From: Sphingosinicella sp.
GTDB lineage: Bacteria; Pseudomonadota; Alphaproteobacteria; Sphingomonadales; Sphingomonadaceae
DNA: 38,817 nucleotides
Reading direction: 5' to 3'
NCBI RefSeq assembly: GCF_013911755.1
Contig: NZ_JACESP010000029.1
Location: forward strand, 1-38,817
In this document: one piece after another, positions 34,124 to 36,591 of the stretch
Numbering within the stretch: the stretch's first letter is position 1
How the letters are laid out: each line of letters starts with the position of its first letter
Notes under the pieces: model-generated
What the model was told of the DNA's origin: nothing
The model's input: the letters and a program-made list of their open reading frames with translations, nothing else
The model's database searches: none
Position numbers and translations under genes: made by a program

Positions 34124-35817
34124 TTCGCCTTTGCGGGTTCCGGCGCGGGCGCCGGATGCTTCTTGATCAGCACCCACTGCTGCGCGATCGAGATGATGTT
34201 GTTCACCGTCCAGTAGAGCTGCAGACCCGCCGCGAACGGCGCCATGATGATCATGAACATCCACGGCAGGATGGCGAACACCTTCTGCTGGATCTCGTCG
34301 AGCGGCTGCGGATTGAGCTTCTGCTGGAGCCACATGGTGATGCCGAGCAGGATGGGAAGCACGCCGATGCCGATGTACGGCGGCGGCGTGAACGGCAGCA
34401 GGCCGAACAGGTTCACCGGCGTCAGCGGATCGGGCGCGGAGAGATCCTTGATCCACAGGTAGAACGGCTGGTGCCGCATATCGATGACGAGGAACAGCGT
34501 CTTGTAGAGCGCGTAAAAGATCGGAATCTGGAGGAGGATCGGCAGACAGCCCGCGAGCGGGTTCACCTTCTCGGTCTTGTAAAGCTCCATCATCTCCTGC
34601 TGGAGCTTCAGCTTGTCGTCCTTGTAGCGCTCCTGCAGCGCCTTCATCTTCGGCTGCACCTGCCGCATCTTCGCCATCGAGGCGTACTGCTTGTTCGCGA
34701 TCGGGAAGAGCACGAAGCGGATCAGAATGGTGAGGCCGATGATGGCGACGCCAAGGTTGCCGGTCTTATCGAACAGCCAATCGAGCAGGTGAAAGATCGG
34801 CTTCGCGATCACCTCGAACCAGCCCCAGTCGATGGCGCTGCCGAGGCGGGGGATGCCGAGACCGTCCTGATAGCGATCGAGAACGTCCACTTCCTTGGCA
34901 CCCGCAAACAGGCGCGTCGTCGTTGAAGCCGTCTGCCCGGGGCCGACGGCAATCGGCTCGCCGCGCACACCCGCCTGATAACGCGCGTCGCCGCCGCTGC
35001 GGAAGTTCGCGTCGAACGTCTGGTCGTTCGCGGGGATCAGCGCGGACAGCCAGTATTTGTCGGTGAAGCCGATCCAGCCGCCCTTTGAGCGGAAATCGAT
35101 CTGTCCGCCGGGCGCCTCGTCGATGTCGTCGTAGTTGTTGTCGTAATTGGTCTTGCCGCCGAACACGCCGATCGGGCCGGTGTGCGCGTTGAACGTGCTC
35201 TGGTCCGGCCCGGTGCCGACGCGTGCAACAAGGCCGTAGGGTCGCGCGACAAGCGCCTGGTTGCCGCGGTTCACGACACTTTGCTTCGCCGTGAACAGAT
35301 AATCCTTGTCCACCGACAGGGCGATCTGGAAGGTCTGGCCCGCAGCGTTCGTCCACGACAGCGTGACTGGCTGTTCGGGCGTCAGCGTCGGGGCGCTTGC
35401 CGTCCAGCGCGTCTCGGCGGTCGGCAGGCCCGCGGCCCCGGTCCAGCCGAATTCCGCGAAATAGGCGCCCTGCGTTCCCGAAGGCGAGAACAGGCGGACG
35501 TTCGGCGAATCCTTCTTGAGCGTCTCGTCGTGGCGCAGCAGCAGCAGGTCATCGATGCGCGCACCGGCCAGATTGATCGAGCCCGAAAGCGCGGGCGTGC
35601 GGATCGCAACGCGCGTGCCTTCCGCGATCACGGTCGCCCGGTCACGGAGTACGGTGGAGGCCTCAGCGACCGGCGCCGCGCCGTCCGCCTTCTGCGCCGC
35701 GCTCACCGGTTCGTTCGACTTCGGCGTCGGGAAGAAGCGTTCCGAAACGGCAGTCCAGCCGAACAGCACGACGATCGACAACAGGATCGCCAGGAACATG
35801 TTGCGATTATCGCTCAA
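34120..35817 (-). CDS. yidC: Membrane protein insertase YidC
   Basis: Inner-membrane insertase acting alone or with SecYEG. The 565-residue Gram-negative type has an N-terminal membrane anchor ([22 protein letters not shown]), a large periplasmic domain (about residues 30-340) and the conserved C-terminal bundle with [25 protein letters not shown], then [34 protein letters not shown], and the closing [23 protein letters not shown]. Both ends overlap neighbours by four bases (yidD upstream, engB downstream). Confidence 0.98.
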
Positions 35818-36098
35818 GCTCGACCACCTTCTTGCGGCCCGCAGCAGGGCCTCGACTTCGTTATGGTTTCAGGACCGGGGACGGGATCGAACCCCGAACC
35901 GCCCCACGGATGGCAGCGCAATATCCGACGAAGCGCGAGCGCGCCACCCTTGATAGGGCCGTGCCGCTCGATCGCCTCGATCGCGTAGGCCGAGCACGAC
36001 GGCGCGAACCGGCACGTTGGCGGCAGGATCACCGAGAAGCTGAGCTGCCAGCCGCGCGCCACAAGGATCATCATCCGGCCGGCCAGCCTGCCGATCAT
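35814..36098 (-). CDS. yidD: Membrane protein insertion efficiency factor YidD
   Basis: Small amphipathic protein that helps YidC-dependent insertion. The 94 residues carry the family pattern [22 protein letters not shown] with its three Cys region, then [25 protein letters not shown]. It overlaps rnpA and yidC by ATGA at both ends, so the whole operon is translationally coupled. Confidence 0.96.
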
Positions 36099-36568
36099 TT
36101 TGCGACCTTTCGCACGGCGCGCTCAAGATCGGCGATCATATCCGCATAAGCGCGGGTGAGCCCTGCCTCGCGGCCGATCAGCACATAATCGTGGGCAGGA
36201 GACGCGAGCGCCGGCATCGATTCGGAAACGAGCGCGCGCAGGCGACGCTTCAATCGGTTGCGGACAACCGAATTGCCGATCTTCTTGGTGACGGTGAAAC
36301 CGACGCGCACGGCGCCTTCATCGGCGCGGTCGCGGGCCAGCAGGATGAAGCCGTCGGTCACGGCGCGGCGTCCTTTGTTCGCGGCGAGAAAATCGCGCCG
36401 CGCACGGAGCCGCTCCGGCTTCGGAGCTACGCCGACAGCCGCTTGCGGCCCCGCGCACGGCGGGCCGCCAGAACCTTGCGGCCGCCCGGCGTCGCCGAGC
36501 GCGTGCGGAAGCCGTGGCGCCGTTTGCGGACGAGCTTGCTCGGTTGGTAGGTGCGCTTCATCGGACAT
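36095..36568 (-). CDS. rnpA: RNase P protein component with long N-terminal extension
   Basis: Protein subunit of the tRNA 5'-processing enzyme RNase P. The core begins near residue 52 ([17 protein letters not shown]) and includes [24 protein letters not shown], the RNR motif helix that binds RNase P RNA, then [11 protein letters not shown]. Upstream of the core this frame has no ATG, GTG, TTG, CTG or ATH codon until ATG 36568, seven bases before the rpmH start. The visible gene therefore encodes about 50 extra residues, rich in Pro, Ala, Gly and Gln, that run through the whole of rpmH in another frame. The AAGAAGG ribosome site is only one base from this ATG. An unusual start codon such as GTC or GTA near the rpmH stop is the only alternative. 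Confidence 0.88.
36427..36561 (-). CDS. rpmH: 50S ribosomal protein L34, nested within rnpA
   Basis: The 44-residue L34 starts [18 protein letters not shown] and ends [11 protein letters not shown], the standard length and sequence. AAGAAGG lies eight bases before the ATG, an ideal spacing. The entire gene lies inside the rnpA reading frame at +1 relative frame, and its TAG is about 15 bases before the RnpA core begins. It is the first cistron of the operon continuing through yidC. A TTGACT/TATGCG promoter and a terminator hairpin precede it. Confidence 0.98.
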
Positions 36569-36591
36569 GCCTTCTTGCGAATCGAATCAAT

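Follow-up and report, generated by a model that had tools for sequence, protein, structure and literature searches.

Probable nesting of rpmH within rnpA in Sphingomonadaceae, an arrangement resembling that of Thermus

Introduction

Feltens et al. (2003) reportedly described an overlap of rnpA and rpmH in Thermus, both products of which are said to have been demonstrated experimentally, and Thermus RnpA has a long N-terminal extension. The start codons of the two genes lie 4 bases apart, in the sequence AUGGAUG, and one Shine-Dalgarno site serves both (PMC9841429). That paper, from 2022, presents Thermus as the sole bacterial example of an ambiguous start site known before the E. coli sites that it reports itself, namely the AUGUG/GUGUG start sites of pqiA, tamA and narQ (PMC9841429). 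The open-access literature, surveyed through listings and some passages, yielded no report of an rnpA/rpmH overlap outside Thermus, Sphingomonadales included.

Here we analyse a locus of Sphingosinicella sp. (Sphingomonadaceae) together with its relatives. The sequences make it highly probable that rpmH is nested in rnpA behind a single Shine-Dalgarno site, with two competing AUGs and with RnpA initiated at an ATG 7 bases upstream of the rpmH start, a position denoted −7 below.

Architecture of the locus

The locus lies on the minus strand of a 38,817-nucleotide stretch of DNA with a GC content of 67%, the whole of which is referred to here as the window. Open reading frame analysis and a frame check show that the rnpA frame at 36095-36568, coding for 157 aa, holds the whole of rpmH (36427-36561) and lies in the −1 register relative to it. 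The two ATGs are separated by four bases, TCCG, and the rnpA frame stays open for 163 codons, from after the TGA at 36587-36589 to the TGA at 36095-36097. A preliminary description of this DNA had placed rpmH wholly within rnpA with starts 7 bases apart, and its coordinates, frames and spacing are all correct. The locus comprises the following features.

36095..36568, minus strand: long form of rnpA, from ATG 36568 to TGA 36095-36097, 157 aa; PF00825 and TIGR00188 matches above cut-offs
36427..36561, minus strand: rpmH (ribosomal protein L34, 44 aa, ATG to TAG), in a frame other than that of rnpA; PF00468 and TIGR01030 matches over the full length
36566..36568, minus strand: ATG, putative start of rnpA, 7 bases 5′ of the rpmH ATG at 36559-36561; found in 6/6 genomes of the genus and 24/109 loci of the family
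36570..36576, minus strand: AAGAAGG, single Shine-Dalgarno-like site, 1 nt from the rnpA ATG and 8 nt from the rpmH ATG
36425..36568, minus strand: N-terminal extension of RnpA, 48 codons, spanning all of rpmH and ending 2 bases beyond its stop; predicted to be disordered
36104..36424, minus strand: conserved domain of RnpA, residues 49-155, starting directly past the rpmH stop; from Pfam and pLDDT
36587..36589, minus strand: TGA closing the rnpA frame upstream, in frame, six codons 5′ of ATG 36568
35814..36098, minus strand: downstream neighbour ORF, 94 aa, whose ATG overlaps the rnpA TGA (ATGA, 36095-36098)

Both proteins are identified by profile search. The rnpA product matches PF00825 (79.2 bits) and TIGR00188 (60.8 bits) above cut-offs, and the rpmH product matches PF00468 (78.6 bits) and TIGR01030 (72.5 bits) over its full length, positions 1-44. 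Pfam assigns residues 49-155 of the long ORF to the Ribonuclease_P domain, and the ORF aligns with chains of solved RnpA structures from residue 49-52 onward. The extension read across rpmH, proposed beforehand at roughly 50 residues, comprises the 48 codons ahead of the domain. The genome, rated 99.94% complete, contains one PF00825 match, and RnpA is essential in bacteria; RnpA must therefore derive from this frame. A structure prediction that took in 47 of 66 nested RnpA sequences gives mean pLDDT values of 45-59 per ten-residue block for the extension (residues 1-50) and of 87-96 per block for the core from residue 51 on. The RnpA core is confidently predicted in this model, in which the N-terminal extension appears disordered.

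Apart from ATG 36568 itself, no ATG, GTG, TTG, CTG, ATT, ATC or ATA codon occurs within the initial 60 codons of rnpA, in keeping with the earlier observation that no start-type codon lies between this ATG and the RnpA core; none was found either in the six codons that separate it from the upstream TGA. However, inside rpmH each rnpA-frame codon joins the last base of an L34 codon to the two leading bases of its successor. An NTG codon therefore requires a TGN codon (Cys, Trp) in L34, of which there are none here, and the absence of NTG inside rpmH is largely automatic. Missing starts in a single genome are weak evidence, because only about ten codons past the rpmH stop are informative. ATG 36568 is the putative start of RnpA, and the case for nesting beyond chance is carried by the comparison with relatives.

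The genes 3′ of rnpA are themselves packed by overlaps (35808-36104). The stop of rnpA and the start of the 94-aa ORF, which we take to be yidD-like, share the sequence ATGA, and the ORF that follows, presumably yidC-like, begins at a TTG that overlaps the stop of the preceding ORF (TTGA).

Conservation in Sphingomonadaceae and beyond

The family sample comprises 199 genomes of Sphingomonadaceae, 193 of them with an RnpA match. The best-scoring 110 of these 193 and three further members of the genus provided 113 loci, 109 of which were analysed; the other four (L024, L027, L051 and L088) have rnpA with no recognised rpmH in the available stretch, and the genes may be apart there. All six sampled genomes of the genus share an identical GGCATGTCCGATG start region, with no later ATG, GTG or TTG before the core. 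Across the family, an ATG occurs at −7 in 24 of the 109 loci, while every other offset from 1 to 30 is occupied in 0-2 loci. All 24 of these ATGs are in the rnpA frame, which is open to the core, and four different quartets occur between the two ATGs. Together with three loci of one genus in which TTG replaces ATG at −7, the nested state extends to 27 loci in 14 genera. In these three (L025, L026 and L096) no other ATG, GTG or TTG lies six or more codons ahead of the conserved Phe codon of RnpA. The preliminary description had proposed alignment across relatives as a check; conservation is indeed found, in these 27 loci and in at least 119 stretches from named genomes.

Among the 28 loci that combine an open rnpA frame with ATG, TTG or GTG at −7, 5 carry a further ATG, GTG or TTG six or more codons ahead of the conserved Phe, against 78 of the 81 others (Fisher p 9e-16, uncorrected for relatedness, a value that overstates the case as the loci are related). 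Only two well supported independent pairs are available on the RnpA tree, too few for testing. The preliminary description had held that ordinary starts past rpmH in relatives would tell against nesting. The outcome is mixed: such relatives exist in number, but they are the loci that lack an open-frame start at −7. Separate rpmH/rnpA pairs lying close together (gap < 70 nt) likewise favour the frame relation of the nested loci, with 18 of 28; a number of them could descend from nested genes, or the relation could just be the permissive one.

Some loci of the family depart from both arrangements. One (L095) carries an in-frame ATG 22 bases 5′ of rpmH, above the Shine-Dalgarno site, with no downstream start, and is possibly a nested rnpA with a different start spacing. 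Two others (L058 and L008) lack a start at −7, show no ATG, GTG or TTG from the rpmH start to a point six codons short of the Phe, and may use a rare start codon for rnpA; L008 has a TTG 19 bases before rpmH.

A tree of the RnpA core (119 columns, with many forks unresolved) requires six changes for the nested state defined by ATG or TTG and seven for ATG alone, with L013 (TTG, closed frame) and L063 (GTG) not scored as nested. A single clade of all nested loci, imposed as a constraint, is not rejected (p 0.38). Agreement modulo 3 of the gap from rpmH stop to core was not used, because the loci were selected by frame.

Named genomes were scanned with the pattern ATG-WVYG-ATG at the rpmH start, a choice in which rnpA plays no part, and at least 119 stretches match. 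Among the matches listed, 72 of 80 titles belong to Sphingomonadales and the other 8 are MAGs without assignment. The genera named in them are Sphingomonas, Sphingobium, Novosphingobium, Sphingosinicella, Allosphingosinicella, Stakelama, Parasphingopyxis and other Sphingomonadales, a membership of the order that we in part assume. Eight of the 119 matches listed have frames that run off the available sequence, leaving 111 assessed for continuation, and in 110 of these the frame continues in register into RnpA. The sole exception, L149, has a frame that stops 65 codons from the −7 ATG with no RnpA, and may represent loss, a sequencing error or a genuine exception. Downstream starts were judged in the 110 loci, that is, with L149 and the eight incomplete frames left out: 64 have no ATG, GTG or TTG six or more codons ahead of the Phe, and 46 have one. 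In 26 of these 46 the nearest such codon is an ATG, and several are Sphingobium loci with an ATG directly before the core.

Within the order, ATG-N4-ATG at rpmH occurs in 67 of 296 genomes, all of them of the window's own family; it was found in none of 83 genomes of other families, a comparison in which the visibility of rpmH is uncontrolled. A sample of the class gave 3 matches in 385 genomes: two come from the family, one of them being the window's own genome, and the third is genome G446. Stripped of its first ATG, the pattern sees rpmH in 130 of the 385 class genomes and leaves 255 not visible; outside the family, the −7 ATG pattern occurs in 1 of 125 class genomes where rpmH is visible to it. 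The G446 locus (L233) was rejected as nested and attributed to chance.

The rnpA frame within rpmH

A stop in the rnpA frame arises wherever an L34 codon ending in T is followed by AA, AG or GA. Comparison of 129 distinct rpmH genes having an ATG at −7 with 76 distinct rpmH genes having no start there shows 0 stops at 637 junctions in the former and 21 at 421 in the latter, which places a stop in none of the 129 nested genes against 14 of the 76 others. At the per-column rates of the others, 25 stops would be expected in the nested group. Codons ending in T are rarer in nested rpmH (0.112 versus 0.178), and scaling for this scarcity lowers the expectation to about 16. The third bases of L34 codons, which serve as first bases in the codons of the extension, vary to a like degree in the two groups: their mean entropy over 29 four-fold columns is 1.15 in nested and 1.16 in separate genes, and no additional amino-acid constraint on the extension was found. 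As read from these alignments, and with the same caution about relatedness, the rnpA frame is kept open through rpmH while the extension's own sequence is not conserved, a combination that fits a disordered tail.

In 62 of the 129 distinct nested genes rpmH ends in C-TGA, so that the rnpA frame reads CTG at this point. An A, G or T before TGA, looked for as a sign of start avoidance at the rpmH stop, occurs in 0 nested and 3 of 76 separate genes, a difference that is little informative.

The initiation region

In 88 of the 129 nested genes the Shine-Dalgarno spacer to rpmH is 8 nt, which leaves 1 nt to rnpA. The claim that the single AAGAAGG of the window suits L34 and lies too near the RnpA start is consistent with these two spacings. 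Scored against an assumed 16S tail, the distances in the same 88 genes are 13 for rpmH and 6 for rnpA. Mean site strength, computed with the same tail, is −3.5 kcal/mol in nested and −3.9 kcal/mol in separate genes, and by this measure the nested sites are weak. According to the E. coli study, the usual Shine-Dalgarno distance is 13-14 and a strong site at short spacing rules out the 5′ start (PMC9841429). At a distance of 6, the upstream AUG is short by E. coli rules, so that initiation of RnpA must be weak or work otherwise. The spacing suggests much L34 and little RnpA, the likeliest division being low initiation at the upstream AUG and high initiation at the downstream one.

Alternative explanations

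RnpA might instead start by termination-reinitiation at a non-canonical codon located on or beyond the rpmH stop, the −7 ATG being incidental. In its favour, in the window ribosomes translating L34 end just 35 nt ahead of the conserved Phe codon, the C-TGA ending of the 62 nested genes supplies a CTG, and L058, a separate locus, lacks both a start at −7 and any ATG, GTG or TTG six or more codons ahead of the Phe. However, the window and five congeners contain no CTG, ATA, ATC or ATT there, save a CTG inside the core of L005, and the 24 of 24 in-frame ATGs at −7 are left unexplained, as is the stop-free rnpA frame across rpmH; we consider it unlikely. A less distant prospect, though still a doubtful one, is that some lineages make two forms of RnpA, a long one from the nested arrangement and a shorter one initiated internally near the core, which is compatible with initiation at ATG 36568 in the window. 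A short form is possible in the 46 listed loci with a second start, where the long form is perhaps not alone. In 31 of them the nearest such codon lies at exactly six codons before the Phe, and separate loci, too, frequently have their nearest start at six or seven codons from it (25/75). Against this, some of the TTG and GTG codons are likely due to chance, and in the window's genus an internal ATG, GTG or TTG start is impossible, there being no such codon.

Programmed −1 frameshifting in rpmH, yielding an L34-RnpA fusion, has the right geometry, given the −1 register of rnpA relative to rpmH, but appears very improbable. The X_XXY_YYZ heptamer is absent from rpmH of five members of the genus (the rpmH of the sixth had been set aside as a duplicate), heptamers are similarly frequent in separate and nested loci (9/76 versus 14/129), and a fusion would have no need of the −7 ATG. 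Nor is there much to recommend a long open frame arising by chance in GC-rich DNA, or an assembly error, which we hold to be just as remote. The window's base composition and the mostly automatic absence of starts inside rpmH would allow it; the agreement of six genus genomes and 14 genera argues against it, as does the distinctness of offset −7 from every other offset, and what chance gives is displayed by G446, whose frame runs for ten codons to a stop and has no RnpA in register.

Discussion

Nesting of rpmH in rnpA, with RnpA initiated at the −7 ATG, suggests how one mRNA could serve both proteins. A single weak Shine-Dalgarno site would be followed by competing AUGs 7 bases apart. The majority of 30S subunits would set the downstream AUG, that of rpmH, in the P site and produce L34, and a minority would initiate at the upstream AUG, nearly touching the site, and produce RnpA. 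Ribosomes of the latter kind would traverse all of rpmH in the other frame, placing a disordered tail of about 50 residues ahead of the normal domain. Starts so close together should be mutually exclusive on any one mRNA, from which it would follow that a high ratio of L34 to RnpA is fixed. Such a split of initiation would suit a need for plenty of L34 and scarce RnpA. Whether a large part of Sphingomonadaceae has evolved, apart from Thermus, a device that holds two essential genes at a fixed ratio, in which an AUG nearly in contact with its Shine-Dalgarno site, and poor by E. coli standards, is the sole RnpA start and rpmH codons are kept stop-free for it, is a matter on which we are evenly divided.

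Nesting of the same gene pair in a second phylum looks like a repeated evolutionary outcome. The family, which has many cultured members, offers a natural series of nested loci, nested loci with TTG, nested loci with a second start and separate loci, a series that could show how one initiation region shares ribosomes between two essential proteins. Gene callers that are averse to long overlaps, or that cut RnpA back to its standard length, may position rnpA wrongly in such genomes.

Several known arrangements are comparable to the one described here. As in the E. coli AUGUG/GUGUG sites, one initiation region would serve two overlapping frames, with the choice set by Shine-Dalgarno spacing; there, however, the start codons overlap and are 2 bases apart, whereas here two whole conserved genes nest (PMC9841429). 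The ordinary rpmH-then-rnpA loci of the family have the same gene order and a similar, more spread placement of the Shine-Dalgarno site, but differ in having a start-type codon for rnpA past the rpmH start, the nearest lying 5 to 50 codons before the Phe.

The closest likeness is with Thermus, and the preliminary proposal of a Thermus-like nesting with RnpA starting at ATG 36568 fits both the anatomy of the window and the family comparison. As in Thermus, rnpA encloses rpmH completely, the two being read in different frames (in the window and in 110/111 loci among the matches listed), the starts are near-adjacent, and a single Shine-Dalgarno site precedes them. The absence of an alternative start for a standard-length RnpA, which we take to be a defining feature of the Thermus type, holds in 6/6 sampled genomes of the genus and in 23/28 family loci that have an open-frame start at −7, and does not hold in 46/110 named loci among the matches listed. 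A long N-terminal extension of RnpA would be a further point in common. The two systems differ in phylum and in spacing, with 7 bases between the starts here and 4 in Thermus; relatives in the window's family carry a separate rnpA, and three loci of one genus have TTG in place of ATG. The products were reportedly shown by experiment in Thermus and are predicted here from sequence. Since the pattern is absent from the sampled order outside the family and from the visible part of the class, the arrangement in Sphingomonadaceae is probably convergent with that of Thermus.
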